Part shown: positions 7,897 to 47,955 of the stretch, one piece after another
Layout: every line of letters starts with the position of its first letter
Position numbering within the stretch: the first letter of the stretch is position 1
Source of the DNA: Escallonia rubra
Taxonomy: Eukaryota; Streptophyta; Magnoliopsida; Escalloniales; Escalloniaceae
DNA length: 64,000 bases
Assembly (NCBI GenBank): GCA_033065855.1
Contig: JAVXUO010001881.1
Coordinates: 1-64,000 of the forward strand
Direction of reading: 5' to 3'
Notes under the pieces: model-generated
Told to the model about the DNA's origin: nothing
Databases searched by the model: none
Seen by the model: the letters and a program-made list of their open reading frames with translations, nothing else
Made by a program: the position numbers and the translations under genes

Positions 7897-8700
7897 TGTG
7901 AAACAGCTCCCTATATGTAGAAATATAGACTACGCTGAACAATCAAATGACATTTTCAACTGAAAATATTACCTTAAAATTATCGTGACGAATAGATAAA
8001 TTTAAGATGACAAATATACCATATACATAATCAGTCTCCCATTTTGCTAATTATAGATTTATTGAACATAACAAATTACAATTACTAAGAGCGTTAGACA
8101 AATTCATCATGCCAAAATACAACAAACGTATCTCAAAAAATTCGAATTTAAATAGAACATCATCAGAAATTTATATTTTTTTGCCCAAAATCAAAATTAA
8201 CTACAACAAACTTCTTTAAAATTAACAAATTAATTTCTAGAACATCATCAGAAATTTATATTTTTTTGCCCAAAATAAAAAATATACTTTATCAGTCAAT
8301 CCACCCAGAAAATATCTGAGATGAGAAACTTACCTTGCTTGAGTGAAGAAGATTGAAGCAAGTTTTCCGGTAACGAGAAGCTTGAGGGGAGCCGGAAATG
8401 GAAAGCCAGGTGAATCCGAAGGAGAAGAAAATTTTGCGGGAAGAGCTTGAGAATTTTGCAGGAAGAGCGGGATGAGCTTGAGAATTCAGGAAGGAGAGCT
8501 GAGAAGAACCGAAAATTTTGCGGGAAGAGCTTGAGAATTTTGCAGGAAGAGCGGGATGAGCTTGAGAATTCAGGAAAGAGAGCTGAGAAGAACCTCGGGG
8601 GTATACGGGAAGCACCTGTCCGCGCTCCTGTATAGCGGTTACCTTTTTTGCTTTCTCGCGTCAGGCAGGGGTCAGAGTCAGGCAGGGGTGTAAGGCCCTG
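7897..8700 (-). promoter_or_regulatory. Transposase 5' leader with intron and internal duplications
   Basis: On the minus strand a leader exon ends at a GTAAG donor near 8333, and a probable acceptor lies near 7913, just before the transposase ATG. Within the inferred intron a 40-bp phrase AACATCATCAGAAATTTATA is directly repeated at about 8156 and 8241. Upstream, a unit containing GAGAATTTTGCAGGAAGAGC and GGGATGAGCTTGAGAATTCA is tandemly duplicated at about 8438-8590. Open frames here are products of the repeats and are not called. Confidence 0.55.
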
Positions 8701-11560: not shown

Positions 11561-12390
11561 AAACTACATGTATGCATGTTACTAGAAATGGTCCTAGACT
11601 TGCTAGGAAATGGAGTAGTTGAAAACCAAAAAGATGATTGCAGCATGTAGAAATGTTAAGGATTTCAATGACCCTACTAAACAGCATGACCTCAAGAAAA
11701 TGTTGAAAAAAAGAAATGTACAGATTGTTGGGTTGGTTGAACCCAAAGTAAGAGTGTAAAATGTACAAAGAATAACAAATAAGTGGAAGAATCATTGACA
11801 ATTCATCCACACACCAATCATAAGGATGTAGCTAGTATTTGGGATGTATGGAAATATCAAGCATTCTATGTAAACTAAATCTTAATATATCCTTAAGTGA
11901 TCATTGTGGAAATAAATCCAGTCAACCAAGATCCATGGTTTCTATCATGCATCTGTGGTAATACTAGAATCAAGAGAAGATAATTATGGAATCAACTACA
12001 ACAAGATGCAGCTGGTGTTGGACAAAAACCTTAGATGTTAATAGGAGAAAGATTCCCAAATGAAAGGCGAGGTGGAGGTGGAATATACTATAGCTTAACT
12101 CTATGGAATTCAACAAGTGCATCTTCAACCTAAATCTTCAGGATATGGCTACTAGAGGCAATTTCTTAAGTCTGAGCAGAATTGATAGAGTCCTCTTAAA
12201 CTCTACTTGGCTGGACATTTTCACTAGCTCAGAAGTGGAGGTGTGTGACCCTGAGCTATCTGATCAGTGTATGCTATTGATCCATTTGTACCATAATAGG
12301 TACAGGGCATGAAACCATTCAAATTCTTCAATTTTTGGATGTTTCACCCTTATTTCAAAAATCTTCTTTAGGATTAGTTTTTTTTTCGGC
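11561..12390 (+). pseudogene. LINE ORF2 relic, endonuclease region
   Basis: Frameshifted LINE ORF2 begins near 11620 with an APE endonuclease start-like segment that includes NDPTKQHDLKKMLKK and QIVGLVEPKV. It continues to 12103-12312 with RGNFLSLSRIDRVLLNSTW and an LSDQ block corresponding to the conserved SRIDRxL and LSDH motifs of plant LINE endonucleases. It is interrupted near 12390 by the inverted Ulp1-bearing fragment. Stops and indels make it non-functional. Confidence 0.7.
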
Positions 12391-13650
12391 CATATCTATG
12401 TCCGCTATACTATATAGCGGACCTCCAAGCAGAAGGAAGAAGTCTCACTTGGTTTTTACACTTTGTTTCCCCCTGGTGAAAGCAAATCACACAGAACAAA
12501 TAAAACACTCAGCTCAACAACACAACGATCAGTGAATCAAATCAATCGCATTCAACAACGATCACATCTCAGTCAACACAGATGAAATCGTCAATCGCAT
12601 TCAAACTATAAGATTCAAGAAGTTTAAGGACAATTAAAAAAGTGAATATAATGTTATTATACGCAAACAATGTCAATTACACGGATTTACAATATATCTA
12701 ATAGGTTTAGGCCGGCCATTGATAATTTGCCAAGCCATCCTATACCTAAAGCAGTCTATGCATTCTTGGGTCCAGACGGTCTTCTTGAGGCTCTCCGACC
12801 GACAGATGAAATCCATGTTCACGCAGAGGAAGACGCCGCAGTCCGAGGAATTAAGTTGCTTGGGCCTAGTCCTCTTCAATCGGAGAACAAGCTCCCTATC
12901 GCCCGCTGCCCTACCTCGGGTCTCTCGAGAACGCTCTCTATTGACCATGGCAGCAAATAGATTTTGCGAGAAAAAGGATAAGCATTAAACATTAAACATA
13001 GAAAACATAATACGATTAATCAGTTCTACAATATGCAAGTTACAATAAGAAGTAAACATGCTCTTACCATTGGATCCAACATCCCTAAGCCTCGGTACAT
13101 TTCAATCACACTAATCGCGTCCGTATCATCGTAGAGACTGTCGAGGACTGATACGGTATTCGTTACCGGTTCATAGCAAATCAAGAACCAGTGGGCATTC
13201 GTTATAGCTGGGAGTAGAAACACATCCGCCACACTTGCGCTCTCTGGACTCGGCCGACCAAGATATGCGAGTAGGTTAGCGGACGGTCTCCACTTGACCT
13301 CGGCCTTCGCCTTTCTCGCCTGCTTCCTCGGCTTGTCCCACTCGTTAAACTCTTGTACTAGCATATTGTGAAAGTAAGCATCGAGGATAACAATGCACGG
13401 ACCGTAGTTAGGCTGCTCCCGACTCCTTTGCCGCAAAATTTGCACGTAGTGCGAGATGACAAAGTTGTCTAACCATATCCCCGGCGCCAGTGTGGACAGT
13501 TCTCTCCATGAGACACTGTAATCCAAGCCCTGCGGGTTAGCCACGTCATACGACGCTCCGTCTAGGGGGGGGGGGCGCTAAAATAACGGTGATGGATTAG
13601 GTCATGTTTATGCGGCTTCAGGGGCCTGGCTGGATGCCCTTTCGGATATG
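12391..13650 (-). mobile_element. Inverted 1.25-kb fragment of the Ulp1-bearing Mutator-like element
   Basis: This is the reverse complement of about 505-1690 at high identity, including the intergenic tail. Its low-coordinate end carries the palindrome GTCCGCTATACTATATAGCGGAC (12400-12422), in the position where copy 1 has its 80-bp array. The high-coordinate end breaks abruptly within the N-terminal coding region at about 13648. LINE sequence resumes on both sides. No terminal repeat or target duplication is evident, so this is either a truncated insertion or a rearranged relic. Confidence 0.85.
12673..13648 (-). pseudogene. Ulp1-type (C48) protease, copy 2
   Basis: Exon 1 runs from about 13648 down to 13068 and exon 2 from 12963 down to 12673. 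Unlike copy 1, the twelve-base C run (13565-13576 on the plus strand as G) keeps the N-terminal and protease frames joined. The catalytic His (AHWFL), Asp (VLDS), Gln and Cys (QLNSSDCGVFLC) are all kept. However, the intron acceptor, CAG in copy 1, is CAA here (position 12964), so normal splicing should fail. The gene is also cut off upstream. Differences between the two copies are mainly substitutions that keep the frame, so both probably diverged while encoding protein. Confidence 0.85.
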
Positions 13651-14983: not shown

Positions 14984-15918
14984 CACTACAAGAAATTTGC
15001 CATTTAGCGACGAACACGGTTCGTCGAGGAAGGTCGCCTATTCGTCAAGAAATACATACAGTGACGAAAAAAATTCGTCACAAAGTTCGTCAAAGACTCG
15101 CCGTCAAGAAATGTATTTTTTGACGAATATATATGTTCGTCAATAAAAATCATATTTATTGACGATTTTTTACTTCGTCAAGGTATGTATGATATCTAAT
15201 GACAAACTATTTCGTCGAAATAGTTCACACGAATTTGTCGCTGGATGTTCAAGTTCGTCAAGAATGGGTTACTTTATCGACGAACCTGGTTTCGTCAACA
15301 AATCATTCATCGTCATTATTTTTTCCCTTAAGTTCATCACAATTCTTTCTTGACATACTTCCTTCGTCGATAATGGTGACATTTGTTGACGAACTTAAGT
15401 TCATCACAAAAAAACAATTCTTCCTTGACATACTTCCTTTGTCGATAATGGTAACATTTGTTGACGAACTCAAATTCGTCACAAAAAATATTGATCGTCA
15501 CAATTCTTCCTTGACATATTGTCTTCGTCGTTGAAAACTACATTCAATGACGAAAAAATTTGTCATTACTTGTTACCCCTTTAGCGACGAATATTTTGGT
15601 GTTTGATGAGCATCAAATTGTAACGACAAATAATAGAAAGATTTAGCAACAAATAGTAGAAAAAAGTCTTAAACTAATACATAAAACTAATGCTATCCAT
15701 TACAAAGATTTAGTTGGTTACAAAGTGAGGACATAAGTACGTATAGCAACAAAGCTTGACATATATTCTAAGTACAAATTAGAACTATACAAATACAATG
15801 CACATGTTGATGCAAATGCAACCATCCTAGTGGTCGGTGACGCATCAAATATCGACCACTTGCTTCATATCATGTCAAGAGATGATCCGTATATATAACG
15901 TATCCGAGACATCCGTAA
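14984..15918. mobile_element. Left end of a CACTA (En/Spm-like) transposon
   Basis: The segment starts with the canonical terminus CACTACAAGAAA and continues with dense subterminal repeats of GACGAA and TTCGTC in both orientations to about 15600. It includes a duplicated block with CTTGACATACTTCCT (about 15350-15520). Beyond 15600 the sequence is AT-rich with no ORF. No matching right end with the same subterminal repeats is visible, so the element is truncated, probably by the hAT fragment and the LTR junction near 15919-15956. Confidence 0.75.
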
Positions 15919-15955
15919 CTAGATCTGGCAAACGGGTCGACCCGCGCGGGTACGT
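15919..15955. mobile_element. Fragment of a hAT terminal end
   Basis: The sequence TAGATCTGGCAAACGGGTCG and following bases match the first bases of the complete hAT element at 52560-53538 (TAGACCTGGCAAACGG). Only about 35 bp remain, joined to truncated LTR sequence. Confidence 0.5.
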
Positions 15956-17404
15956 ACGTCAAAGTGTGTTGCGGTGTGCGTGAATGTGTGTGTACAAGGT
16001 GGTGTGTGTAGTATGCGGGCAGGTGTGTAATGTGTTCATGGGAGTTGTGTGTCTAGGCAGCAAGGAGGAGAGACCAGCTATGAATTTGTGCAAGTACATG
16101 TGTGTGAGTAGGTGAATTGAACAATAACAAAGCCACTGCCTCAAAGCCACGGCAGTGGCTTTGCTGTAACTTGTGGGGTGTTGAGATGGTTATGGTTTGG
16201 AAAAGAAAAATGAAGCTAAGGCAATAGCTTGGAGGGAGATAGGAATTTGGTGAATGAATGAGAAGATGACGAGTTCAGCTGTGGGAGTTGGAGGAATTGG
16301 TTATATGCATATGGGTATGTATGTGTGTATATTAGTGAGTTAAAAATTGTGTAGTGTGTAATAAGTGTGGAATGTGACATTGAGTATGTGAATGGGGCTG
16401 AAGGTGGCTGCGTGTGTGTGTGTGTGTGTTGGTGTGAAGAAAATGGTATGCGCAGAGAGGGGGAAAGGGAAAAGTTGGGAGTTCAATATTTGAGCGTAAA
16501 AGTGTCGCTAAAGGGAAAGATTTGAAACGGTTCCTTTCCAAAAATTTCTACATGTATCTAGAAATTTATTTGGACAAAACTCAAAAGAGTAACTTATATT
16601 ATTTTTGGAAGATCTACACACAGGGAAAAAAATTAGGTTTTTCTGAGCTTGGGAAACATGCTAACTAATTTTGTCTGAACAAGAGATTTCGGTGCATTTT
16701 AGAATAGTAAATTAAGTTATTAAATTCTAAAACTCCTACAATAATCTTATATAGCTAAGATAAGGTAGTTTCTATAGTTTTGGAAGATTTTAAAGTCGTT
16801 TGCCATTTTTAGCACTGTTAGCGGTGTAGCGCTCGTTCGGCTGTCGTGTAACGCTTCACTATTACAACAGTTTGTTAAACTATTTTTAAGAACCTCTTAT
16901 GAGCAGATTTAGAAAAATTACAAAACTAAAACTTCCCTTATTTTTGTGAAACCTTCGACGTGGAATTTTCTGGGATTTTTCTGTGCATGCGAAATATCTC
17001 GAGCAAAATTTATTTTAGAACAGGTTTTTGAATTAATTAATATAGTAACCAAAAGGGAAATTACACACGGCACCCCTGAGGTTTGCCCTAAACTACACAC
17101 GGCTCCCCCAATCCTTTTTAATTACAATCCGCTCCATTTCTTTGACAGTGTTAACGGTGGGACGCAAAAAAGACATTTTAACCCTCTTATATTAACTATA
17201 CAGTGTCGTCTTGGATTTTGGAGGGAACTGAGAAGTCTGGCTCTTCACTCTTGGCTACAGACATCAAATCGAAAAAAACAAAATGATGCAGTCTCTCGAC
17301 CACAATGGTGATTCAATGAAGCATCTCAAAATGTGATCCCATTTTTAGATAACACCCCAGAATGGTTCAGGTCCTCTTCTCACATTGTGCTTTCTCCGTT
17401 CTCT

Positions 17405-26821: not shown

Positions 26822-29775
26822 TACCAATTTAGTGATAAAGGCTTTAGAGTAATCTTTGAAGCTTCTCATTGCACTATACAATCTATAAAGAATAATGAAA
26901 CAATTTTGGTAGGAAGTAGAGATAATAATGTTTATTCCATTTAATTAAATGATTTAGCTAACCAAGATGTTAAGTGTGTTAGTGCTATTAGTGAGACATC
27001 TTGGCTTTGGCATCGAAGACTTGGACACATACATATGGAGTATTTGAAGGATATATCAAGCAAAGAACTTGTAAGGGGTCTCCCGAAGATCAAGTTTGAG
27101 AAAAACATAGTATGTGATGCTTGTCAAATAGGTAAGCAAAAGAAAGTATCTCATAAACTGAAGAAAATGGTATCTACTTCTAGACCTTTGCAATTACTTC
27201 ATATGGATTTGTTTGGACCAATCTCTACTACTAGTCTTGGTGGAAAAATTGTTTTGTTATTGTTGATGACTATTCTCGCTATATTTGGACTTTCTTTTTG
27301 GTTACCAAAGATGAATCTCTAGATGTGTTCACTTCATTTGCAAGACATGTTCAAAATCAAAAAGGATATTTGATAACCTATATTCGAAGTAATCATGGTA
27401 GAGAATTTGAAAATTAAAAAATAGGAGCTTTGTGTGATGACATTGGTATATCACATAATTTTTTGGCTCCTAGAACTCTTTAACAAAATAGTGTTGCCGA
27501 AAGAAAGAATAGGTCATGGCAAGAAGCGGCAAGAACAATGCTTAACGAATATGGTTTACCTAAGTACTTTTAGGCAGAGGCGGTCAATTGTGCATGTTTT
27601 GTTCTTCATAGAGTAATCTTGCGAAAATTTTTGTTAAAAACTCCCTATGAGCTTTTTAATGATAAGAAACCTGAGGTGAGCTATTTTAGAGCCTTTGGAT
27701 GCAAATGCTTCATTTTTAATTCTAAGGATCACCTTAGAAAATTTGATTCCAAAATCAATGAGGAAATTTTTCTTGGTTACTCTAATAATAGTATGGCATA
27801 TAGAGTTTACAATAAAAGAACTTTAGTTGTAGAAGAATCCATAAATGTTACTTTTGATGAGACTAATCCTTTTCTTCGAAGGACTAACATTCTTAATGTA
27901 GATGACATGAGAACTTTGGACTTAAGTGAAACATCAAAAGACAACCCTAAAGAAATTGGATTAGGGGAGCAACAATCAAGCTCTCATGGGAGAGACAAGG
28001 AATCAAGCAATGATGCTTCAAACTTGGACAACTCTCAAGCTTTACCAAAAGATTGGACTTACAAGAAAGTTCATCCAAGCGATCAAATCTTAGGTAATCC
28101 TTCGAGTGGGGAATCAAACAATGATGCTTCAAACTTGGACAACTCTCAAGCTTTACCAAAAGATTGGACTTACAAGAAAGATCATCCAAGCGATCAAATC
28201 TTAGGTAATCCTTTGAGTGCGGTAAGAATTCGACACTTTCTCCATCAGCATGTTAATTTAGCTTTTTTCACAAATTGAACCCAAGAACTTTCCCTAAGCT
28301 CTACATCATTAATCTTGGATGCTTACTATGCAAGAAGAGCTAGTTCAATTTGAAAGAAATCAAGTTTGGACTCTTGTGCCTAAACCTCAAAACTATAGGA
28401 TTATAGACACAAAATGGGTATTTAGAAACAAACTTGATGAATTAGGAGTCGTGGTTAGAAGCAATGCTAGATTAGTGGCCCAAGGTTATAACCAAGTGGA
28501 AGGAATTGATTTTGATGAGACATGCACCAGTAGCTAGACTTGAATCTGTTAGAATGTTATTATATTTTGATTGTTATAAAGATTTTAAACCTTATCAAAT
28601 GGATGTTAAGAGTGCTTTTCTAAATGGTTTTATTTCGGAGGAAGTATATGTGGCTCAACCTCTCGGTTTCGAACATGAAAAATATCCAAACCATTTTTCA
28701 TGCTTAGCAAAGCTCTTTATGGTTTAAAACAAGCTCCTAGAGCTTGGTATGAAAGGCTAAGTAATTTTCTTTTAGAAAATGGATTTTCTAGAGGAAAACT
28801 TGACACCACTCTTTTTTATAAAATCTAAGGTCAATGACTTATTTTTGGTGAAAATTTATGTTGATGATATTATATTTGGTGCTACTAATGGATCCTTGTA
28901 CTTCTTGTATGAGTAAGGAGTTTGAAATGAGCATGATGGGAGAACTCGACTTTTTCCTTGGATTGCAAATCAAACAAAGCAAGGATGGATCCTTATCAAC
29001 CAAGCCAAATACACCAAAGATCTACTTAAGAGATTTGACATGGAAGGTTCAAACGCATTTGACACTCTAATGAGCTCATCATAAAGCTTGATAAAGATGA
29101 AAAGGGTAAGGATGTTGACATTAAGTGCAATCGAGGTATAATCGGCTCACTCATTTATCTTACCGCAAGTAGACCCGATATAATGTTTAGTGTTTGTCTA
29201 CGTGCTCGATTTCAAGCTTGTCGTAAGGAATCTCATTTAGTAGCCGTTAAGAGAATCCTTAGATATCTTAAAGGCACTCACGACTTAGGGTTATGGTTTC
29301 CTAGGAACACGTCATTTTTTGACCTAGTTGGTTACTCCAACACCGACTATGTCGGTTGTAAAACTGAGCAGAAAAGCACTAGTTGCGGTTGCTAATTTCT
29401 AGGACACTCACTTGTTTCTTGGAGTTCCAAAAGGCAAAATTCGATTGCTCCTCTCTACCACCGAAGCGGTTGGGGCTTATTGTGCACAAATTCTTTGGAT
29501 GAAACAAACCTTTTTGGATTTTGGACTCAAGTATGATCACGTATCTATCTTATGCAATAACTCTAATGCTATTGACTTGAGCAAAAATCCCATCCAACAT
29601 TCACGGATTAAGCACATAGAAATCAAACACCATTTTATCCGCGATCATGTGCAAATATCGTTATGGATTTCGTGGACGCAAATCACCAATTAGCGGATAT
29701 CTTTATTAAACCGTTAGATTCGAAAAGATTTACCGTTCTTAGAAGAGAACTTGACATGTCTTCACCTATGTGACT
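26822..29775 (+). pseudogene. SIRE-like Ty1/copia pol, 5'-truncated and decayed
   Basis: The 5' LTR, gag and protease are missing. GAG-pre-integrase appears at about 27005-27180 (WHRRLGH, then CDACQIGKQ). The integrase core follows at 27190-27650 (LLHMDLFGPISTTSLGG). Its second catalytic Asp reads Asn in IRSNHGREFEN (usual SDHG). Reverse transcriptase motifs are WVFRNKLDE, YQMDVKSAFLNGF and YVDDIIFGAT. RNase H motifs lie at 29180-29700 (LKGTHDLGLW, YSNTDYVG, IKHIEIKHHFIRDHV). The order IN-RT-RH identifies copia, and the wording of IN and RT resembles the SIRE/Maximus lineage. Many frameshifts and stops are present. The element resumes after a CACTA insertion. Confidence 0.88.
28008..28230 (+). 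repeat. 111-bp in-frame tandem duplication in the copia linker
   Basis: A 111-bp unit starting TGATGCTTCAAACTTGGAC occurs at about 28011 and 28122 with few differences. This duplicates 37 codons in the hydrophilic linker between integrase and reverse transcriptase. Confidence 0.9.
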
Positions 29776-30499
29776 AAATTGTTATATATCTTGTGCGTTA
29801 ACATGCAAGTTTGCACATGCTTGAGCATTATCTCATATGCTTATAGCATGCTTTTACTACAAAAAAAAAAGACTTTTAGGGACGGACATTTCCGTCGCTA
29901 AAAGCCCTATATCCATCGAAAGAGACTTTTAGCGACGGACGCCCCGTCGCTAAAAGTCCGTTGCCTACAACCCTGTCTCTAAAAGTTTTGCGACGGAATT
30001 TTTCAATCCGTCGCCTAAAGTCTACCTTGAACGACGGACGTACAAATACAATTAGCGACGAATATTCTGTCGCTAATTGTATTTTCCGAATTTTAATTTA
30101 TTTTTTTGGAAATAATTTATTAAGTAAAATATTTAGCGACAGAACATTTCTTCTCCAAAAATTGTTGACGTTTAGCGACGGAAATTTCGTCGCTAAACGT
30201 TTGTCGTTTAGAACTTTAGCGACGGAATTTCTGTCGCAAAAAGTCGTTCATTAATAGTAGCAAGACTTTTAGCGACGAAATAAAATTCGTCGCTAAAAGT
30301 CAAACTAATTTAAAATAAAAAATTTATATTTTTAATACCTAAACCTGCAATCACAATCCCTCAACAATTACAATCCAAAAATAAAAGGTATACAAAATTC
30401 AGGAGGGCACGGGAGCGAGGTACAATAGAGTTGGAGATGGGAGTACAAGTTGGGTTGGGGGGGGGGGGGGGCACGAGAGTGGGATACAAAGAGCTAGGA

Positions 30500-30842
30500 G
30501 GGGAAGGGCTGATCAGGGTTCGACGAGTCTCAGATCTGATGGATCCTGCTGATCGTCCTCGTTCGCGGGGGCACTGTGATCCGGATCCAGCTCGGCATGT
30601 CCAGCAGTAATGCCTTGCATGTAAAGGCACGAACGCATTAATCTTGATAGCAATCATATGTAGTGTTCACTAAATGTATATAGTGGTTGTACCTGATTAT
30701 GCACCGAGATCATCCTATAAACCTCCGCAGCAATGCGACGGACCTCGTCCTCATGTAACGACGAGCACTCCACGGTCGGTGTCTGCGTCTGTGGAGATGC
30801 AGCGGGGGGTGAGGACGTTCCTATCACAGCACGTGCAGTCAT
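30500..30842 (-). pseudogene. Possible CACTA ORF C-terminal exons
   Basis: Minus-strand exon-like sequence 30654-30842 contains VECSSLHEDEVRRIAAEVYR. A GTACAACC donor near 30693 and a CATGCAAG acceptor near 30616 would join it to an acidic tail (DPDHSAPANEDDQQDPSDLR). Such tails are typical of ORFs in plant CACTA elements. The identification is by style only, and the upstream part of the gene is missing. Confidence 0.35.
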
Positions 30843-31383
30843 ACCAGGGAGGCCGCGTATGCGGCCTAATGAAAACTGATTAACCCTAATTAAACTCTAG
30901 TTTATAGTAATTATTCCTCATTAAACCCAACTAACTCTGATTAGCCGCCCCTAATTAACCTTAATGTATTGTTAATTTAATATCTAATTAGTCCTAATCA
31001 CCGCTGATTAACCTAATTAAACCCTAATTGTCTTGATAAATCGCAGACAAACCTTAATTAAACCCACTTAGGGTAATTAATTGTAATATGTTCTAATTAG
31101 GCTCAACTAGCCCTAAGTAGCTCGAATTAGCCCGAATTAATCCCTGAATAACACTGATTGAGTCTAATTAAACGCAATTAACTGTAATCAACCCTAAATA
31201 GCTCGAAAACGCATTAACTCAGCATGTTCACCTTAATTAGCTATTATCCCTTTAGGTTCGGTACAAAATCATTTGGTTATACTGAACTTGAGTAGAGAAA
31301 ATCATCATTCCTAAATCCTTTAATATCTAACGATAAACAAATCGGGATTCTCAAGTAAACCCGATGCTTTTGGTTGAAAAGTA

Positions 31384-31790
31384 ATGAACTCAAAAATTTC
31401 CCTAGCTCGTCATGTTGAACCATTAACAGAAATTGAGTCTTTTTTTCTTTCTTTTGTTCACATCAGGTCTTTCCTGGTAACTAAGGCATCTCGTCTAAGA
31501 TCTTATCTTCCGGGACTTCAAATAACACTTTTGGCTCGCAACTCTCCATGTCTGCAGAAGAGAAGAGTTTCTGAGACAAACGATCTTTCTCAGCCTATCG
31601 TAGACATTTCATGCCCTTCATTGTTTCTGAGGTAATTAGATGATAAATACACAATTTTTTTTTACCGATCCCGTATGCCAGATATATGGCTTGCTTTTCA
31701 ACCTATGGATTGCAACCAATATCAAGCAACACAAATCTCGACGCCCCAACCAAATTTATACCTGACATATATCGCTTGCCTTTCAAACCC
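31384..31790 (-). pseudogene. Inverted partner copy of the SNF2 fragment (left arm)
   Basis: Read on the minus strand, this segment corresponds to 31870-32190. It is more decayed: it has substitutions, small indels and the extra block after 31425, and no long frame matching the remodeller survives. It is recognisable through shared stretches such as GTCATGTTGAACCAT, TCTTATCTTCCGGGACTTCA and AACACTTTTGGCTCGCAACT. Confidence 0.8.
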
Positions 31791-31859
31791 CATTTAGCTC
31801 GAATTAGCCCTCATTAGCATTAACCATATTTAGCTCGAATTAGCCCTTATTAGCTCTAA

Positions 31860-32168
31860 TTGGCCCTAGTTGGGACGTCGAGAGTTATTTTGCTTGATAC
31901 TGGTTGGAACCCATCAGTTGAAAGGCAAGCCATATGTCGGGCATACAGGATTTGTCAGAAGAAAACTGTGTATATTTACTATCTAATTACCTCAAGAACA
32001 ATAGAGGGCAGAAAATGTCTGCGACATGCTGAGAAAAACCTTTTGTCTCAGAAATTCTTCTCTTCTACAGACATGGAGAGTTGCGAGCCAAAAGTGTTAT
32101 CTGAAGTCTCGGAAGATAAGATCTTAGACGAGATGGTTCAACATGACGTGCTAAGAGAAATTTTTTAG
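31860..32168 (+). pseudogene. Captured C-terminal helicase fragment of a CLASSY/DRD1-type SNF2 remodeller
   Basis: The 102-residue frame reads SRVILLDTGWNPSVERQAIC, RAYRICQKKTVYIYYLITS, then EGRKCLRHAEKNLLSQKFFS and ends with EDKILDEMVQHDVLREIF. This matches the end of the helicase C lobe, including motif VI (RAYRxGQ, here with Gly changed to Cys), and the terminal EDKxLDxMVxH segment seen in CLASSY proteins. Those host proteins are SNF2-like ATPases that recruit RNA polymerase IV for RNA-directed DNA methylation. The fragment lacks all ATPase motifs, so it is not a working enzyme. It is one arm of the palindrome. RAD54/ATRX-like SNF2 relatives are an alternative source. Confidence 0.7.
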
Positions 32169-32650
32169 TCCATAACTTACCAACAAAAAAGCACCGAGTT
32201 TACTTGAGAATCCTAATTTAGTGGATCGTTAGATATTAAAGGATTTGGAAATGATGATTTAATTTCTCTGCTCAAGTTCACTATAAGCAAATGATGTTGT
32301 ACCAAACCTAAATGGATAATAGCTAATTAAGGTGAACATGCCGAGTTAATGTGTTAATTAGGGTAATTTGAGCTAGTTAGGGTTGATTACAGTTAATTGC
32401 GGTTAATTAGACTCAATTAGTATTATTCAGGGATTACTTCGAGCTACTTAGGGCTAATTGAGTCTAATTAGAGCATATTACAGTTAATTATCCTAATTGG
32501 GTTTAATTAGGGTTTGTCTACGATTTATCAAGACAATCAGGGTTTAATTAAATTAATCGGCAGTGATTAGGGCTAATTAGAAATTAAATTAACAGTAAAT
32601 TAGGGTTAATTAGGGTTAATCAATTTTAATTAGGGCTAATGAGGGTCGAT

Positions 32651-33540
32651 TAAGGCTAATAAGGGCTAATTCGAGCTAAATAGGGTTAATGCTAATGATG
32701 GCTAATTCGACATAAATAGGGTTAATTAGAGTTAATTGGGTTTAATTAGACTTAATTATTGTTAATTAGGGCTTAAGTAAGAGCTAATTAAGGTTAATTA
32801 GAGTTAATGTGTTAATTATGGTTGATTAGGATTGAAGCACTTTAGAATTCATTGAGTTCATTCACAGAGTTGATATTGTCCCACCTGTGACTGAGTCCAG
32901 GATTTAAGTATATAGTTAGGGTTATATTGTATTTAGGATAATTAGGGTTAATTAGGAATATATTAATAGGGTTTAGTTAGAGTTTAGTTATAGTTAACTA
33001 GGGTTACCTAGGGATGTGTTAGGGGTTAATCAAAGTTAATTAAGGGTTAATCGAGGCTAATTAGGTTTAATTGGGATTAATTATGTTTACTTATGGTTAA
33101 TAAGGGTATTTAGGTTTAATTATAGTTAATTATGTTTAATTAGGGTGAATTGGAGTTAATTACAGTTAATCGGGGTTAATTAGGGTTGATCGGGGTTGAT
33201 CCGGGTTAACTATGTTTAATTAGGGTGAATCATGATTAATTAGGATTAATTATAGTTAACTAGGGTTGCCTAGGGATGTGTTAGGGGTTAATCAGGGTTA
33301 ATTAAGGGCTAATCGGGGTTAATTAGGGTTAATTGGGGTTAATTATGTTTACTTAGGGTTAATCAAGGTTAATTAAGTTTAATAGTAGTTCATTAGGATG
33401 AATCAAAGTTAATTACAGTTAATCGGGGTTAATTAGGATTGATCGGGGTTAACTAGGTTTAAATAGGGTGAATCAGGGTTCATTAAGGTTAATTAGGGTT
33501 ACCTAGGGATGTGTTAGGGGTTAATCGGGGTTATTTAGAA
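32651..33540. repeat. Degenerate TTAATTAGGG minisatellite
   Basis: The stretch consists almost wholly of variants of GGTTAATTAGGGTTAATTAGG with a period of about 10-12. It includes larger duplicated blocks, for example TAGGGATGTGTTAGGGGTTAAT at about 33011, 33271 and 33504. It continues the outer repeats of the palindrome's right arm. It contains TTAGGGTT runs that resemble plant telomere sequence but is not a telomere. Confidence 0.85.
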
Positions 33541-34440
33541 TTATTTTTTTATTCTTACCCCTCGGGGCTTAGCCAACGTTTTGTGATAAGCACAGTCTGT
33601 TCCACGTCGGTGGTAAACGTTGTGCTTCATGATTCTCTTCCGCGAAATGACCAACATTCCCTGAAAAGTTGTTACCATTCTCCAAGGAATAACAGAAGCT
33701 ATTCCAAATAAATTAAATTCAATCAACTACCAATCAAAGGGACTAAGGCATCAATTTCTAAAACTTCACATTACAACAATTCTGGAAATCATATTGAACA
33801 CTTCGACATCAGAATAACTTGTATGAAAAAAAATATATAATTAACTATAATCAGAATAATTCAACAAGTCACAGTAAATGCCAAGAATATAGCACTATGC
33901 AGGGCATGGGGGATTGATGAAAAAGGGATATTATAGATTAATTAGAAGAGAAATCAAGTTTGTACATATTAAGGGATTAGTGTACTATGTAGAATGTACA
34001 TAAACATATAAATGTAAGTTTTGCATTTAATGGAATAAAGGACCTATCACACACAAAAAAAAAATATCTGAATAATTCTAACATGTAACAAAAATAATTT
34101 CTACTGCAAAATTAAAAATTCTAACATTTAATTAAAATAATACGTACAAGTGGGGGGGGGGGGGGCGATGGGGCGGGGAGCGGCTGGGGATGCGGTGGGC
34201 CGTTGGCCGGCGGTGCGGTGGCTGGTCGCTGGGGTTACGGGCCATGGCCGGTGGGGCAGTGGGTCAGTGGGGAATGATGGAGGTAGAGGGTGGAGGGGGA
34301 TCGAGAGAATGGTGGTGAGGATGGAGGGGGAAAGATCGACGGCGAGGGGGAAAGAGGGAGCAACGACGAGGGGGAAAGAGGGAGAGAAGAGAGAGAATGG
34401 AAAGCAACGACGCGGGAGAAAAGATAAGCTATTTTAGGTT
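33541..34440. other. CACTA interior without a recognised gene
   Basis: The first part is AT-rich and unique. From 34150 there is a fourteen-base G run and then a GC-rich segment with GGCGAGGGGGAAAGAGGGAG-type repeats (34340-34390). On the minus strand this could be a leader or first-exon region of the CACTA transcript. The open frame at 34150-34437 is compositional and not called. Confidence 0.4.
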
Positions 34441-34796
34441 TTATGGAAAAAAATTTAGGAACGGATTCTACCGTCGCTAAAAGTTCGTCTCTAAAAGTTA
34501 CTTTTAGCTACAGAAGAATCTGTAGCTTAAAGCTATAAAAACTATTAAAAAAAATCTTTAGAGACAAACTTTGATCCGTCGCTAATTTTATTTCCAAAAT
34601 TCGACTAAAATTTAAAATTCTGGGAAAAAAATTTTAACGACGTAAAACCCGTCGGTATTGACCCGTCGCTAATGTTTTCAAGGACAGATAATTCCGTCGC
34701 TGAAAACTTTTAGCGACGGGTCTTTACCGTCGGTAAAAATATCTTATAGAGACGGAAAGGCGTCTGTCGCTAAAGACCGTTTTTCTTGTAGTGTTT

Positions 34797-37476: not shown

Positions 37477-37490
37477 AAAAAGGAGGGGAT
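37477..37490 (+). promoter_or_regulatory. Polypurine tract of the copia element
   Basis: AAAAAGGAGGGGAT lies immediately before the 3' LTR start TGTTAACCCTACGG. Confidence 0.85.
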
Positions 37491-38760
37491 TGTTAACCCT
37501 ACGGTTATTTAACCTAGGATTATATTTGATTTTGATAATAACTAACATTTGATGATTATGTTGTCTAACATGCATTGAGTTCATGAAGCAATAAGTACAA
37601 TCTCATACTCTTGCAAACGGAAAAATAGACGAGCAAATCGATCAAAGATGGAATACTTCGATTGAAATTTTCAATGCTTTTATTCCTTTCTTTGTAACTA
37701 GACATAGAGAGTTGATCGTACGATGACTGACCTAAAATTTGCTCATAGGTTTCCCTTTCATGCATTAACTTTTTCATACTTTGAAAAATAAAGGAAATTA
37801 CTTTTTGTGGAATACAGTCGGCTGCATTGGAATGCAGTCGACTGCAAGTTGGGCAGAGAGTTGTTGGAATGCAGTTGACCGCAATGACTTCTAGTAGCCT
37901 ATTACAGTCGACTGCAATTGAAAATTTTGAATTTCCAACGGCTACTTTGGGAATATAGTTAACTGCAATGGTGCAATACAGTTGACTGCGTTTATCGTTT
38001 GGCGAATTAATTGCCTTACCTACTTCCAAACGGTCATATTAATTCCCACAACTATATAAACTCATTTTGGGCATAGTTTTGATTCATCAATTGCATTCGA
38101 AGCCCTCTTATCTTGCAAATAATCAAAGCTCAAAACTATTATTCAATCTCTCTTGGTTTTCATTGTTTTCTCATCTAATTCAAGAGAACATTTATTGTCA
38201 GCTTACATTTGAGAGATATACACTTTCATAAGTCATCATACACTCACCTCTCTCATTCTAGAGCTTAAACTTGTACTCATCTACTTCTTGAGAGTGAATA
38301 GTTATACACAAAACTTCATCTAAAGTTTCTTGTATCAAAGCTTGGGGTTGTCAAGCTTTGGAGCTTTGAGATTGTTAAAGCTTGTTCTTGATGTGGGTAT
38401 AGCATCAAAGGATTGTAAGAGGTTCAATATTGACCCGTAAGAAAGATCATTCTAGTGGATTCTAGGGCTTTTCAAGAGACTTCCTTGAAGGGGTGGACGT
38501 AGGCTTGAGGGTAATTCGAGTCGAACCATCTAAATCTCAAGTGTCAAGTATCTCTAAACCCTTCTTTCTTTACATTATTGTCTTATATTTGTGTTGAGAT
38601 TGGTTAGCTCGCTTATTTGAGATATTGTGATTGAAGTTTGATGTTTAAAGCTATCTAAGTGTTCATATAGTTTCTCTAAGTTTGTTGTGATTACTCGTTA
38701 ATTTTTAAAGTAGTCTTAAAACCCTATTCACCCCCCTCTAGGGTTATTTTATTGGTTTCA
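37491..38760 (+). mobile_element. 3' LTR of the copia element
   Basis: The LTR begins TGTTAACCCTACGG and ends GGTTTCA after CACCCCCCTCTAGGGTTATT, about 1270 bp. A full-length solo LTR of the same family lies reversed at 62248-63513. Between 37805 and 37990 it carries several CAGTCGACTG palindromes or near copies such as CAGTTGACTG. No matching 5' LTR is present because the element is truncated at 26822. Confidence 0.88.
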
Positions 38761-40780: not shown

Positions 40781-43700
40781 TTAAGAGTACCTCTCCATCT
40801 GCATGTTAACGAACTTGCTCACCTCCAAAATAAGCTGCTTGGATTCCAGGAGTTCAGGAAATGCATAAAAACCATGAACCATATTTGGATACTCTACCAA
40901 GTTGACTTCTTTGCCAGAAGACCTCTTTAGCCACTCGTAATACCTCCTTTGCCAGTCCTGAAGCACATCCATCCCGCCCACAAAGATTAGGGTTGTTGGA
41001 AAATCCAACCGGGATATGTCAGCTGCTCGTGGCCCACTCACGTTGATCACCTCGTGGTCTCGGTCCCACCCTTCCCCTGGCGGCGAGAAAGTCCGCCAAT
41101 ACCAGTCTGTCCGTTCCACGTTCAGAGTAAGTGATCCTACCTGTTTCTTTTCTGACTCTGTCCTCTCCTCTCCTCCAAAGAATGGTTGTAGAGCCATCAA
41201 TCCAATCACCTTTGTTGATCAAGAAAACCATCAGCGAAACACACTTATTAGGATTCAATTGATAAATGCAAAAGCAATCCATCACTACATGTTCATGTTC
41301 ATGTTCATGTTCATGCCTGCTTTTCTTTGTTCGATACTACAAGAGAATTTCATTTATACAAATAAAAAAATAAATCATAACTAAGGAGTTTAACAGAAAA
41401 ACCCAGCCAACACCCCTTCCTCCCTCAGCTTCAATGGCTGAGAGGATGGAAGGGGAGGCCCTTTCAGTGCCCCTCATCCTCGTCTTCCTTTCCCTCTCGT
41501 CGCCTCCTCCACCTCCCTCGCACACCCCATCTCAGCCTACTCCTTTCACCCTCCAATCTCCAACCCTTCCCTCTCCCCCCACCCTCTTCCCTGCAAATTA
41601 AAATTCCGTTAGCCCCAGAGCTACTCCCTTCCATTCGCTACCCTCAGATCTGAGACAATTGTTTTTTTCAAATCTATCGTTGTCATCGGACCCCCCATCC
41701 ATTTGGTTTGGTCAGAGATACTTTTGTTACGGATCCAAGATGGAGGCTTTGTGGCAGGTCCGAGATGGAGGGCTTATGGCTCGAAGATGCAAAATCTACT
41801 GGAGTTGGACAACACACATTTGATTTGAGCTACAGATCGCTTCAATCCGGCCTTGGGATGCCCTAAGGCTTTAAATTTGGGTTGAGTTTTGTTGGTTTAT
41901 TCAACCCAACCCCTAAAAATGTGAGGTTTTACCCAACCTAACCCACTCAATTATAATACATGTTAGGATGGGTTGAGCTAATATCATAACAGATTATCTT
42001 AGGGCTTTTAAAATTCATTTGTATAAAATTTTAGGCCACCACCGCAGGGGAACAAGAATTCTGAATAAATAAATGAAGGTCGTTTAGACAAAAAAAAATT
42101 CTAATTTGTCACCTCCACCACCACCGGTGACAGCCACTTCCTCCAGCCTCCGTGATAACCAACAGCCTACCGGCGACCGCCGGCAGTCACCTCCACCTTT
42201 ATAGTCAGTTGTCGCCACCACCACCGGTCACAAGCCACCGCCTACTTTCACTGCTACCGATAGCGGTCACCACCGCCGGCAGCTGCTGCCACCACCAGGC
42301 TGCCACTGTTAGACGACACTGCTGACAGCCGCCGCCACTATTGCTGTCGACACCACTGTCGCTGGCAGCCACCGCCGGACACCACAACTCCATTTTTTGT
42401 TTCAAATTTCTTGTGATAATCCCATCTTAACCCAAATAGACCCGCGTACCTACCCCAACCTGATTGATTCAACTTTTTTTTTAGTATTAAAGCTCAGTGA
42501 GTTTTTAAACCACATGAGCTTTCTTGGTTTGGGCCCATCCAAGTTGCATCCCTAGGAGAACCCTTATCCACCTTCTTTAGCTCCAATGAAAAGCCATGCG
42601 GTACTATAAACTTTAATTTTATGAGGACTTCAATATTGATTCAAGATTTGTTTTGTCGTTTTTTGTCAATTCTTCGGGACTATTACTTATTTTCATCCCA
42701 AACAAGATAACCCTTACCAGTTATTGATTTCCCTTAAGGCCATGCTACCCATGAGCAACACTTAATGCTCTGTTTGACAAAACTTTTTTTTTGGTTTTCA
42801 GTTTTTGGAAGAAAAAAATTTAAAGAGCTGCTTAAATTTTTTTTTTTTGGTGTTTGATAACTCAATTTTTATTTTGAGTTTTTTTTTTGTGGTGGTTTGA
42901 GGTGGCTGGTGGCTGCCGACGGCTGGCGGTGGTCGTTGGCCGCCGCCGGTGGTCACTGGCCACTGGCCACTGGCGGTGGTCGCCGGAGGTTGCCGTCGGT
43001 AGTCACCGGCGGTAGTCGCTGGTGGTGGTTGCTAGCCGGCGATGGTCGCGGGTGGTGGTTGCCGGGTGGCAGTGGTCGCCGGTGGTGGCTGCTGACGGTG
43101 GGAGGGTGGTGGTGGTCTCAAAAAAACAAAGCTGAAAAAAAAACTCATTCAGTTTAAAAACTGATTTTTTAAACTGAAGAAAAAAAAATTGTTACCAAAC
43201 GCGACTTTTTTTCCAGTTTCCAAAACTGGAAAAAAAAGCTCCTCCAAACGGAGCCTGGCGGTATAGCCCTATTGACTATCATAAAGATGCATATGCATAA
43301 TGTAGTAGTAAAAGAATTTCGAAAACTTATTATCGGAGTGCCAATAAGACTATTTTTTCCAGTACTTTATCTTGCTATGCCCTTCAAAACAATTTGGTAC
43401 ATTCTGCTTAATTTAAAATCCTAGCACTGGTACTTTGAAATGCTTGACTTGTCTGCTTTGCATTTCCGTTAGAATTGGGTCGTCTTTAAGAGAAAAATTA
43501 AGAAGAAGTGGCACTAGAAATGAAATTCTATAGTCAACCTACAAGCACAAAGAGGCAGACTATTCATTGTCACAAATCTATTTATGTTCCTTAGGATTCT
43601 ACTTGGTCCAAAAAAGAAATTTTTTTGCTGCTACCCGTAGGTTGAAATAATCTTTCTCCTACCCTCTATATAGCAACTTTAAATATCGCTGAATATTTTT

Positions 43701-44965
43701 AGTGACTTCTATTTATGACAAAAAAAAAACACTGTTAAGAATTGTCGCTGATAGTGTTAATTAAAAAGTCACTAGAAATATTTAGTGACTATTGATTGTC
43801 ACTACATATGGGATTAGAGAAAAATTCCTACAACCCGAGTATCAGTTAAAAAAATTTCGTCCAAAAACCTCATGTCTAACCATAAAAACATTAAAGTAGC
43901 GTTTGACATCATTTAAAATTTTCATTTTTTCTCAAAAATGCGTTCGGCATACAGTTTTCGTTTTTTTTTTTCCTTCAGTTTTGAAAACTAGTTTTTTAAA
44001 AAGGGTTGTTTTTGAAAATTTCTATTTTGGAGTTTTGACTTTCCAGTTTTGGTTTTTGTTTTGTTTTGAGACCGCTGCCCCGGCTCCTACCACAGCCCTT
44101 GCCAGGACCCCCGCCCCTGTCCCACCGCCGCCACAACAAAAAAAAATCAAAATAAAAATTGGGTAATCAAACAGCCAAAAGAAAAAATTCAAAATAAAAA
44201 TTGGGTAATTAGGCAATCAATTATTTTGTAAAAAATAAAAACTAAACTGGTTCAGTTTTGATTTTTTTGAAGACCGTAAGTGTGAATGGAATAATAACTC
44301 CATTGCCAAGCCCTACCTAAGTTGTGGTTAGCATCTCCTGAGCACCATTAAATACGGGAATCATGATTGTACAATCGTTACGGGTTTTTACGTACCCTGA
44401 GTTGTTGGAACTGGGACTGGCAGGCTCTTTTCGCAACATGGTGGCCCAGGTTGCCGCCGGCGCTGTCTCCGGCAATGAAGCAGCGTGACAGATCAGCATT
44501 TTCAGGCAACTCCTGGGGGTTGTCATCAAGGAACTTCAGGGCTTCGAACCCGTCCTCGTACTGAGCCGGGTATCGGTGCTCAGGAGCGAGCCGGTAGTTG
44601 ACGGACACAACAACGGCCGGGATACTGCCCGAAAGGCGGCGGCAGAGGGCGTCGAACGGCCTGCTGTCGGGGCCAAAAGTCACGAATCCGCCGCCGTGGA
44701 AGTAGACCACCACCGGGAGATAGCCCGGGCGGCGGTGATCAGTGGGGACGAAGGCCCGGAACCAGAGGTTGCGAGATGGGTCGACGGACACGTCGTACGA
44801 CTTGACGCCTTTGAAGGGCTTTGGGTTGGGCGGCGCCTTGAGGTCGAGGAGGTTGAGGAGGCGGCGGTTCACGGTACCGTTGGGGCGGTAAGCTGATTTG
44901 GTGGCTGCGTGGAGCAGGAAAAGGAGGACGCGGATCTTCAGGGGAAGGCTCGCCTTCGCCTCCAT
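40781..44965 (-). CDS. Carboxylesterase (plant CXE family, CXE18-like), two exons
   Basis: Exon 1 is 44396-44965 (ATG 44965, 190 codons) and exon 2 is 40781-41209 (142 codons plus stop). They join in phase 0 across a GT-AG intron of 3186 bp, giving 332 residues, the usual CXE size. The alpha/beta-hydrolase hallmarks are complete. The oxyanion-hole motif HGGGF is at residues 90-94, the nucleophile Ser168 is in GDSAGGN, the catalytic Asp271 is in GGMDVLQD, and His292 is in MVHGFYAF. The retained catalytic His argues against the related gibberellin receptor GID1. CXE enzymes hydrolyse short-chain esters, are usually cytosolic, and some act on hormone or defence metabolites. The exact substrate cannot be read from sequence. 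No disabling change is seen. This is the clearest intact host gene, and its intron hosts MITEs. Confidence 0.93.
42095..42385. repeat. GCC/ACC-rich low-complexity block in the carboxylesterase intron
   Basis: The block is rich in CCACCACCGG and CCGCCGGCAG-type phrases. A T- or A-rich edge on each side resembles the cores of the nearby MITE family. The open frame across it is compositional. Confidence 0.55.
42768..43256. mobile_element. MITE with GC-rich core in the carboxylesterase intron
   Basis: The left end reads GCTCTGTTTGACAAAACTTT and the right end is the complement of GCTCCGTTTGGAGGAGC. Subterminal TTTTCAGTTTTTGG and CCAGTTTCCAAAACTGG segments face each other. The interior (42897-43120) is a GGTGGTCGCCGG-type minisatellite. 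It belongs to the same family as 55923-56405. The target duplication is not clear here. Confidence 0.65.
43620..43830. repeat. Short AT-rich repeat relic in the intron
   Basis: Phrases with GTCACTA and AGTGACT recur in both orientations (for example TTTAGTGACTATTGATTGTCAC), as in subterminal repeats of DNA transposons. No termini can be defined. Confidence 0.3.
43893..44285. mobile_element. Degenerate MITE of the same GC-core family
   Basis: The left end GCGTTTGACATCATTT resembles the family start. The order that follows is also shared: TTTTCGTTTTTTTT, CTTCAGTTTTGAAAACT, then TTTTGAGACCGC and a short Cys/Pro-codon-rich GC core (44070-44130). The right terminus is eroded. Confidence 0.5.
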
Positions 44966-47955
44966 AACAAACTATCAAAGGAGTCGCAGATATGTACGTT
45001 GATGGAGTACAGATGATCGGACTAAGAAGCGAAGGAAGTGGTACTTTCTGGTTGGTGATTGATTACTGGTTGGTTAGCAGTTATTAATGGCTGGGATACA
45101 TTGCAAAGAGCCAAAAGACTTTCTTAGTCCATGTCGTTGTTTGTATTTTAACACTTATAATAAAGCTAAGAAAACATTTTCTGTCCATGTTTGGCCATCG
45201 ATCTTATTCCAATTTGTCATTCTCAAGGGGAATATTAAAGAATTGCTGCCCAATTTCACCTTTATACGACCTCCCACCCATTTCATTGGATTCGTACACT
45301 CTTGACTTTTTAAATTTTAAGAATAATTTTTGAGCAATTTAAAATCATCCACAGGCTATGCATCGCTAGCTTGTACTGCCTCCACCGATCGGTCTGGCCA
45401 TGTCGAGGATCCAAGGACAAGCAGATCATCGACCCTCAACCGATCGAAGTAGCCCTCATTATGGACAAGCGTTTTTCGTAGCAACGCACTCGGAGCGCCC
45501 GCTTTGTCGACACGAATTCTCATACTCTGTCTGCAAACCACTGACAAGGTAACCTTTCCGTGCATGGTGGAGGACATGCAAACCGACCTTGAGCGAGGCT
45601 TACCGCATGGGGACCGTCGTGCAGATCACCTTCTCGATCGGATCACTCGTTATTAATCTCTGTCGCACATCAAATTCATCCTTTATTATCATTGTAAAAT
45701 ATTTTTACTTGATCCAATCATTTGAATCGTTGCCCAAATTCATGTTATTGCCCCGAAATTCTAAGTCATGATTTTGGGCCAAAATTAGTCAGTTGTAATC
45801 AATTCTTGACGTGGCTTTTGCCACCTTCACAGTTCGAGAGCATGTTTGAGTTGGAACTCATTTTAGATTGCCCTACATGATAAACCAACCAATCACTTCA
45901 ACATCTATTCTCGTTTTATTTTGCATTTTGTCATCTAAAATTTAAGGTAATCGTACCAACTTTACTGACACGTCTATCTTTAACCAATGAAGAGAAGACC
46001 ACTGAAGTTTTTGCTAAACAAACATTTCAATTCTTCATGATTAAATATCATGCAACTTCATAGAATAAGTTAGTTCTTGAATTGAGTTTGAATCCTCAAC
46101 CACCAAAAGGTTGGATACAAAAGTGGGATTGTGAGGATGTGGGTGCATGAGCTGTGAGGTTGATTTGACTGTTGCAAGGCTGTATAAGCTATAAGGCTGC
46201 TGTGATCTTGGCTCATTATTAGCCAAAAGATTAATCTATATGACTGGGCTAAGAAAAAGCACATAACTATCAAGTGCATGATTAGAAAATTTAAAAGACA
46301 CAAGATAAAGTCATAAGGCTTGTCATATTATCGTTGAACTGGTCGAAAGTATATCAAACTGCTACATCGAATAGGGCATGCAAGATAAGTCATGAAAATC
46401 AAAGGGCCATCATCAGGCGACAGGAAGATGAACACATCAGCTTCAGGAAACCAGGAATCGAAGGGTTTGGAAAATGTCATAGGGAGGTAAACAAATCGTG
46501 CTCAAAAGGTGCATGGACCAAATATCTTCTCTTTTTTATTTTATTTTTAATTTCTTATTTTTCTCATCTTTTTTTTACCTCATTAAATGGTAAAAGAGAA
46601 TTTCTATCTCTTAAACAAGCATAACCTCGAGGAGGACTTAATATATGGGACACAGTGTAGGCCAGGGTATGGGTTAAGGAACGAATAGAAAATTAGCTCA
46701 ACAACCCAAATATGAATCAAAAGCCCTTAGTGTGTGCCCATATGAACCAAGACTAAAAGGTGACTAAACTACATACGTATCCTCACTAGGAGAATCAGGT
46801 CTGACTCAGTTCAAGCTAGATTTGAACCTAATCGTTGAATCTTGAGAATCATTCTTCCACTATAACGGTTTCTCTTCATTTTTTTTTTCTTCTTCTTTTT
46901 CTTTCTTTTGTTTTCCTTAATAGTTCGTCTTTTTTTTCAAGATTGAACAAATGATCATCAAAACTCTATTCATCATTTATCCTCAAGAGCTTGGTTCCTA
47001 TGAGAAGTAACCCTTTCCGTGTTGATTTGACTTTACAGCAATACTTGGGAGATAGGAACACACACTACCCAAAAAGGAGGGGGGGAGGGGCTTGTTTCAG
47101 TGACTCTTAATTTTTGATACTTTATGAAAATGTCACAAACTAGCTATAATTCATGGCACTGCTATCGTAACGTTAAAAACTTTGTTACACGTTAAAATAG
47201 GTGTCATAAAGTTTTCAACATTTTCATACGTTCCACTTATTAAGTGTCACTTTACTCTTTCGCGACACTAATGAAATGTCAATTAATAACATGTCACTTA
47301 ATAGTCACTCTTAAAGTAAAATGTCGTAACCCTTGGATGTGAAACGACTTTGTTGTATCATTTCTACTTTTACTCGTATATGCATAAAACGCCGGGAGAA
47401 AATAATGGGAAACTAGGTTGTGCCTCTGGTGCCCAATTTTCCCAGACTACCTGTTCATCTTCTCCAGGGCTGAGAAGATCGAAAATCTGTGTTCCACGAT
47501 CGGCGTTCATTTTCCCAGCCACTACCTCTCTGTCTCCCCCCCCCCCCCTCCAAATTGGTGCTCCACGATCTGCCTCTCCCTAGCTGAGTGTCATGAAGTT
47601 CCCAAGCAGCCTCTCTCTTGCGCCAACAATTGGCCATGCATGAAGACCAAAAACCAGCCTTCCTCCCAGTTACGTGCAGAAATTGGTCTCTAACTCCCCC
47701 CCCCCCCCCCCTCTCTCTTTCTCTTAATCTTTTCATCTTGTAAACCATAGTTATCCCAATTTGAGGTTCTTGGAGTTGAAAATTAACATGTATGGAGGGC
47801 AGAGGTAAACATCATTGATGATAGACACACAATGTTCTATCTCTTCTCTATTTTCTTCCTCTTTCATTATAAATTTTATCCAACACAGAGTACTACACAC
47901 AGTTGTGGATAAATATTGCTGAGATTTGGGGTTTTCATCCAATTAGAGGTACACA
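44966..47955. other. Intergenic, promoter side of the carboxylesterase; no gene recognised
   Basis: The first 100 bp are the leader of the minus-strand carboxylesterase. Candidate TATA sequences on the minus strand lie near 45150 and 45260 but are not convincing. A frame at 45356-45577 (minus) has no recognisable homologue. Around 47070-47345 short inverted phrases such as GTGTCACTT and ATGTCACTT recur and may be a DNA-transposon relic. C runs of 13 and 16 occur at about 47536 and 47696. Confidence 0.45.

Follow-up and report, generated by a model that had tools for sequence, protein, structure and literature searches.

An inverted duplication of a CLASSY3/4-like gene fragment inside a CACTA-like element of Escallonia rubra, apparently an old and decaying relic

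Can a transposon that has picked up part of a gene of the plant silencing machinery use it against that machinery, or is the captured piece only a trace of rearrangement? This question is raised by a palindrome in the genome of Escallonia rubra, whose two arms carry the end of a CLASSY-like gene and which lies inside a transposable element. CLASSY proteins are remodellers that recruit Pol IV, and the initial annotation of the locus accordingly read the palindrome as a means by which the element could counter its own silencing. A precedent exists in rice, where miR820, carried by CACTA elements, reportedly targets OsDRM2, as Nosaka et al. are said to have described in 2012; to our knowledge it is the one known case of a transposon small-RNA counterattack on plant silencing machinery. 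Here, we describe the locus within a 64-kb stretch of E. rubra DNA that was analysed as a whole (hereafter the window), and weigh the explanations that its structure, origin and mode of decay allow. The coordinates of its features are collected in Table 1.

Table 1. Features of the CACTA-like element and of the palindrome that it encloses (positions in the window).
Feature	Position	Strand	Basis
CACTA-like element, ~4.9 kb, non-autonomous as far as seen	29855..34793	.	ends, subterminal motifs
Left TTT target-site duplication	29852..29854	+	sequence
Right TTT target-site duplication	34794..34796	+	sequence
Left arm of palindrome	30881..31750	-	alignment to right arm
Right arm of palindrome	31869..32690	+	alignment; predicted RNA fold
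Hairpin loop	31751..31868	.	repeat search, scrap at 31757-31786
CLASSY3/4-type C-terminal fragment, left arm	31320..31762	-	tblastn with P0001; frame translations
66-nt insertion, left arm	31424..31489	.	arm alignment; ATG/ATG on both sides (CLASSY sense)
CLASSY3/4-type SNF2 C-terminal fragment, 102 codons + stop, right arm	31860..32168	+	72/88 to RJ640_012966
Degenerate 10-bp TTAATTAGGG-like tandem array	32356..33537	+	tandem repeat, repeat and self-BLAST searches

The palindrome is enclosed by termini of the CACTA type, present on the right as CACTACAAGAAAAA and on the left as TACTACAAAAAAAA with one terminal change. In full, the right end reads TTGTAGTG/TTT (34786-34793, followed by the duplication), or CACTACAAGAAAAACGG when read inwards in reverse complement, and the left end reads TTT/TACTACAA (29855-29862), its terminal C being replaced by T; over a longer stretch the left end, (T)ACTACAAAAAAAAAAG or, in another notation, TACTACAAAAAAAAAAG, departs by this single change of the first base. 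The 3-bp target-site duplication (TTT/TTT) is present; as its left copy lies in a run of T, it is weakly informative. Motifs of the TTTAGCGAC/GTCGCTAAA type occur 16 times in the window, nine of them in the left subterminal region, three in the right one and four elsewhere. No transposase was recognised in the element, in which the listing of open reading frames holds no stop-to-stop frame of more than 124 aa and the two short frames scanned gave no Pfam match, but this does not exclude membership in the CACTA group, because non-autonomous members lack a transposase. Gene capture by Pack-CACTA elements is described in a review (PMC13317346), and the present element resembles the Pack-CACTA elements described there in having CACTA ends around a host gene fragment, yet differs from their single captured piece in that the fragment here is an inverted duplication.

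Several other mobile or repeated sequences were observed in the window. The left flank of the element is, by eye, a broken copia element, with a Pfam SH3_retrovirus match at 27574-28275. A second CACTACAAG terminus lies at 14984, with TTTAGCGAC-type motifs at 15003, 15580 and 16504, and this region (14984-16504) may, to judge from these motifs, belong to a further CACTA element of the same family. Farther upstream, a 1.3-kb inverted repeat (502-1792 and 12374-13649, 91% identical) carries an open reading frame for an Ulp1 (C48) peptidase in each copy (574-1119 on the plus strand, 13029-13577 on the minus strand) and brackets a 715-codon MULE/FAR1 transposase frame (5782-7929, minus strand), an arrangement that may represent a large element of the Mutator-like kind that has captured Ulp1 domains. 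Two further stretches of about 1.2 kb, at 37490-38646 and 62313-63514, form an inverted pair with 81% identity.

Local alignment of the right side of the palindrome against the reverse complement of the left gave arms that are identical at 693 of 791 aligned bases (87.6%), with 112 gap columns, among them a 66-nt insertion in the left arm, and with differences made up of 68 transitions and 30 transversions, around a loop of 118 nt. The alignment score of 916 is far above chance expectation, the maximum being 41 in 50 shuffles with bases shuffled inside 50-nt blocks, and pieces of the palindrome were also found as inverted repeats of 71-91% identity by independent repeat finding (among the 25 longest of 89 pairs). 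The arms are composite: the CLASSY coding part makes up only about 0.3-0.45 kb of each, the remainder being 3' non-coding DNA and part of an array of TTAATTAGGG-like repeats, of which the first part lies inside the right arm and the rest (to about 33537) outside the arm alignment. The exact TTAATTAGGG 10-mer occurs, on either strand, 12 times within 30801-33600 and nowhere else in the window; the array is telomere-like in look. The arms are 86% identical within the CLASSY coding segment and 90% within the 3' part; the repeat part reaches 91%, and the outer end 77%. The loop is itself composite: nucleotides 31786-31867 repeat 32642-32723 in inverted orientation, and just before them, at 31757-31786, lies a third scrap of CLASSY sequence, about 30 nt long. 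The plus strand of the 66-nt insertion in the left arm shows, by eye, a long pyrimidine tract followed by CACATCAG, resembling the 3' end of an intron. It is nevertheless not taken for an intron retained from CLASSY, since inspection by eye showed that, in the CLASSY sense, it does not begin with GT and end with AG.

When the palindrome is folded as RNA, the predicted energy is -1024 kcal/mol for the plus strand and -1054 kcal/mol for the minus strand, against means of -388 and -403 kcal/mol, respectively, in eight shuffles per strand, and the predicted folds contain 693 (plus) and 720 (minus) pairs between the arms, which makes a long hairpin RNA plausible on either strand according to the model. 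The initial annotation had described a CACTA element with TTT duplications, an imperfect palindrome with arms of 0.8-0.9 kb and a hairpin. The first is borne out by the element ends and by the subterminal position of 12 of the 16 motifs, the TTT being weakly informative, the second by the identity of the arms and by a score that shuffled sequence never approached, and the third is physically plausible at these folding energies. In the 64-kb window, no match to a known small-RNA family was found in Rfam at gathering score.

The origin of the arms was traced by a protein search with the open frame of the right arm, in which 121 out of 204 candidates reached the limit of E 0.001, 120 of these being listed. 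Among the matches listed, the best is the E. rubra protein RJ640_012966, at 82% identity over 86% of the query, followed at 63% by CLASSY3-like proteins of Tasmannia and Cornus and a CLASSY4-like protein of Cornus, and most of the relatives with a specific name are called CLASSY 3 or 4. Comparison with solved structures identifies the same frame as the C-terminus of an SNF2 helicase (best match 1z3i, E 1e-10), with RAD54-like (1z3i) and ERCC-6 proteins ranking best and DDM1 lower among 60 of the 76 sequences at E 1 or better, while Pfam gave a sub-threshold Helicase_C match only. These other SNF2 families, suggested by structure, were set aside, the protein search indicating the CLASSY3/4 type. 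The fragment in the left arm carries stops, frameshifts and the 66-nt insertion; it matches RJ640_012966 (P0001 among the listed proteins) at 76% over 89 aa (31762-31499, tblastn), and farther on, at 31320-31400, a QPK-containing tail closed by a stop codon can still be made out by eye, resembling the end of full-length CLASSY proteins, and the captured piece therefore extends to the end of the gene. Judged by this sequence similarity, the fragments in both arms are of the CLASSY3/4 type.

How much of the gene the element holds could be assessed by comparing the 120 listed proteins with the window by tblastn. Of the 245 rows obtained, 242 fall in the two arms, and this comparison found no complete SNF2 ATPase and helicase lobes in the window, just the C-terminal end. 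The three remaining rows stem from a single Cornus protein (P0003) and lie at 28596-29663, in the broken copia element. Residues 257-449 of this protein, a CLASSY 3-like protein of Cornus florida, match the copia remnant in three pieces, and its gene model may, from these matches, be chimeric with a piece of retrotransposon. The arms thus resemble the CLASSY3/4 proteins (SNF2 remodellers of the CLSY/DRD1 type) in their C-terminal helicase end, with 82% identity to the E. rubra protein, but unlike a whole CLASSY3/4 gene they hold this end only and hence do not constitute a gene. The initial annotation was right in assigning the arms to the end of a CLASSY gene, with the correction that the coding part extends to just about 0.3-0.45 kb per arm and that the left arm is broken. 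It had also set a threshold of 75% identity to a host gene, which is passed at the protein level with 72 of 88 residues identical in the pairwise comparison of the right arm with RJ640_012966 (82%); at the nucleotide level, the upper bound derived below is 92.8%. Further copies of the fragment were looked for among short predicted proteins, where six of eight candidates matched at 49-72% identity in a comparison covering annotated proteins only; of the six, three are labelled with species other than Escallonia and three are without name.

The E. rubra gene itself is known from a partial model of 736 aa, named just 'hypothetical protein', which in four comparisons can be aligned along most of the model with CLASSY-type proteins of other plants, at 50-59% identity over 662-768 alignment columns. 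The model carries SNF2 and helicase Pfam domains, and an E. rubra gene with the SNF2 region is therefore still annotated. It ends at SEVSEDKI, before the tail that the arms still carry, and may, on this comparison, lack its last coding stretch. Genomes of E. rubra (assembly GCA_033065855.1) and E. herrerae are public (PMC10759652, a paper on the draft genome). A carboxylesterase-like gene elsewhere in the window (40781-44971, minus strand) bears on the species: it consists apparently of two exons about 3.2 kb apart, the second assigned by eye from the list of open reading frames, and its first exon (44378-44965, minus strand) matches E. rubra RJ640_026829 at 100% identity along 98% of the exon, the second-ranked match being at 63% (120 listed of 7,997 candidates scored). 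It follows from this match that the window belongs to E. rubra or to an extremely close relative, and that RJ640_012966 comes from the same species.

The relation of the two arms to the host gene can be read from 87 comparable codons, at which the host residue is encoded by the right arm in 72 cases, by the left arm in 67 and by either of them in 81. If an ancestor is assembled from no other bases than those of the two arms, the host residue can be obtained at 83 of the 87 codons; both arms therefore go back to a single copy whose protein was close to that of the host gene. The codon comparison indicates that the inverted duplication arose at about the same time as the capture, and that damage to each arm was independent afterwards. 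The Kimura distance between the arms is 0.137, or 0.069 per arm. Neutral rates in plants are roughly 0.7-1.3 per 100 million site-years, and from these values the divergence of the arms can be placed, as a rough figure, on the order of 5-10 million years.

If a hairpin RNA were made and diced, how well could its products match the host gene? Over 264 nt of the right arm, 19 mismatches follow necessarily from the host protein sequence, and the nucleotide identity to the host gene is therefore at most 92.8%; 56 of the 244 windows of 21 nt in the right arm are without a forced mismatch, and 229 contain three or fewer, all these values being upper bounds, since they were computed from the host protein and leave out silent differences. 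Some 21-mers of the right arm could, on these bounds, match the host gene perfectly. These counts favour the proposal of the initial annotation, according to which siRNAs from the hairpin lower CLASSY3/4, weaken the recruitment of Pol IV and relieve the silencing of the element, much as miR820 does; so do the nature of the donor gene, a remodeller of the RNA-directed DNA methylation (RdDM) type, and the CACTA context, shared with miR820, whose precursor is possibly also derived from its target gene (PMC3459959). The rice hairpin is borne by a CACTA element and possibly both derived from DRM2 and aimed at it (PMC3459959), and here, likewise, a CACTA element contains a foldback of RdDM gene sequence that could target the gene from which it came. 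Features that belong to miR820 only are a short miRNA precursor, demonstrated repression, co-evolution with the target and multiple copies (PMC3459959), in contrast to the E. rubra locus with its foldback of about 0.8 kb, its CLASSY3/4-type gene, one copy seen and neutral-looking decay.

A second comparison is offered by Mu killer of maize, an inverted duplication of a partial gene in a transposon derivative, for which a hairpin and siRNAs have been proposed (PMC3440606). The E. rubra locus shares with it the inverted duplication of part of a gene in a transposon derivative and the proposed hairpin, but in Mu killer (PMC3440606) the duplicated sequence is that of a transposase and the transposon is what becomes silenced, whereas here a host silencing gene is duplicated. 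The inverted duplication of transposase sequence that characterises Mu killer is thus absent from the palindrome, whose duplicated gene is CLASSY-type. The same 2012 paper itself questions a simple hairpin model (PMC3440606). In a search of an open-access library, the titles and beginnings of abstracts listed showed no description of a transposon-borne CLASSY hairpin. Effects in trans need not benefit the transposon, and siRNAs from the fragment could instead tune CLASSY and RdDM as a form of host feedback or intragenomic conflict, to the advantage of the plant or of neither side. The strong predicted hairpin potential speaks for such a role, as does the description of captured gene sequences as reservoirs of siRNAs acting on donor genes (PMC13317346).

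All explanations in which the hairpin acts on the host gene can be confronted with the way the arms have decayed. The ratio dN/dS between the arms is 0.66 (11 synonymous and 28 non-synonymous differences in 97 codons), which, with few sites, is consistent with no selection on the coding frame. A locally conserved, siRNA-like core was not found, the longest identical run between the arms (39, gaps dropped) being at chance level (shuffled mean 38.3, P 0.42). Mismatches are slightly over-clustered in 40-nt blocks (P 0.033), contrary to purely uniform decay, and the low identity at the outer end (77% against 86-91% elsewhere) may explain this clustering. Of the 68 transitions, 30 would leave a wobble pair if the plus strand were transcribed and 38 if the minus strand were, so that an overall wobble bias between the arms is absent (P 0.40); in the coding segment only, transitions lean towards minus-strand wobble (21 against 11), which would suit a hairpin kept for counter-defence, but the lean is not significant (P 0.11). 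Taken by wobble counts and longest run, the pairing between the arms gives no clear sign of being kept by selection. The retention of an open frame of 102 codons in the right arm is not required under pure decay and counts as a point against it. On the whole, the decay of both arms looks neutral, and the copy looks like an old relic. This neutral divergence, together with the lack of an overall wobble bias, weighs against counter-defence; the same lack of any sign of constraint applies to the host-feedback reading, which we regard as very unlikely.

The pattern of mutations points in a further direction. Differences of the C-to-T type affect 12 of 74 CG sites, 17 of 78 CHG sites and 39 of 404 CHH sites, an excess of CG and CHG over CHH (Fisher P 0.0036) that methylated DNA would produce and that suggests that the element itself was methylated, and hence silenced, in the past. 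It stands against counter-defence, as does the E. rubra CLASSY gene model with SNF2 domains, which is still annotated. In addition, transposable elements capture many genes, 1629 donor genes being given for maize in a review (Helitrons, Pack-MULEs and Sireviruses; PMC13317346), so that chance capture of an RdDM gene need not be rare and is less remarkable here. Counter-defence as originally proposed is, in our judgement, improbable. The methylation-like excess also matters for the opposite possibility, that the palindrome is an inert rearrangement, untranscribed, giving rise to no small RNA and having no effect. Decay without clear constraint, the degenerate left end of the element, where the terminal C reads T, and the failure to recognise a transposase all agree with an inert palindrome, but the CG/CHG excess fits targeting by methylation, and long inverted repeats in plants typically produce small RNAs; inertness, too, we regard as unlikely, if marginally less so.

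The account that best accommodates the CLASSY origin of the arms, the best match in the same species, the palindrome, the element ends, the independent decay of the arms and the methylation-like mutation pattern runs from capture and inverted duplication through possible dicing and silencing of the element itself to decay, and we consider it probable. A CACTA element in E. rubra would have taken up the 3' end of a host CLASSY3/4-type gene, consisting of the last coding stretch and 3' non-coding DNA, and the captured stretch would have been duplicated in inverted orientation at about the same time through a complex rearrangement. Read-through transcription could then have produced a hairpin of roughly 0.8 kb, which Dicer-like enzymes would cut into siRNAs, the likeliest effect of these being methylation and silencing of the element itself, whereas an effect on the 3' end of the CLASSY mRNA would be at most weak and incidental. 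The present copy would be an old relic that decays without clear constraint.

It is improbable that the locus represents a second, independent CACTA hairpin directed against an RdDM gene, of the long siRNA type and aimed at CLASSY3/4, of which the present copy is a fading relic. If this were true, CACTA elements would repeatedly evolve small-RNA counter-defence, and a CACTA element with an inverted-duplicated gene of a Pol IV-recruiting remodeller is a natural second test case after miR820. If the hairpin is silent, the locus would instead illustrate cleanly how a captured gene fragment is duplicated in inverted orientation and then decays neutrally, and it would be a caution against inferring function from such structures.
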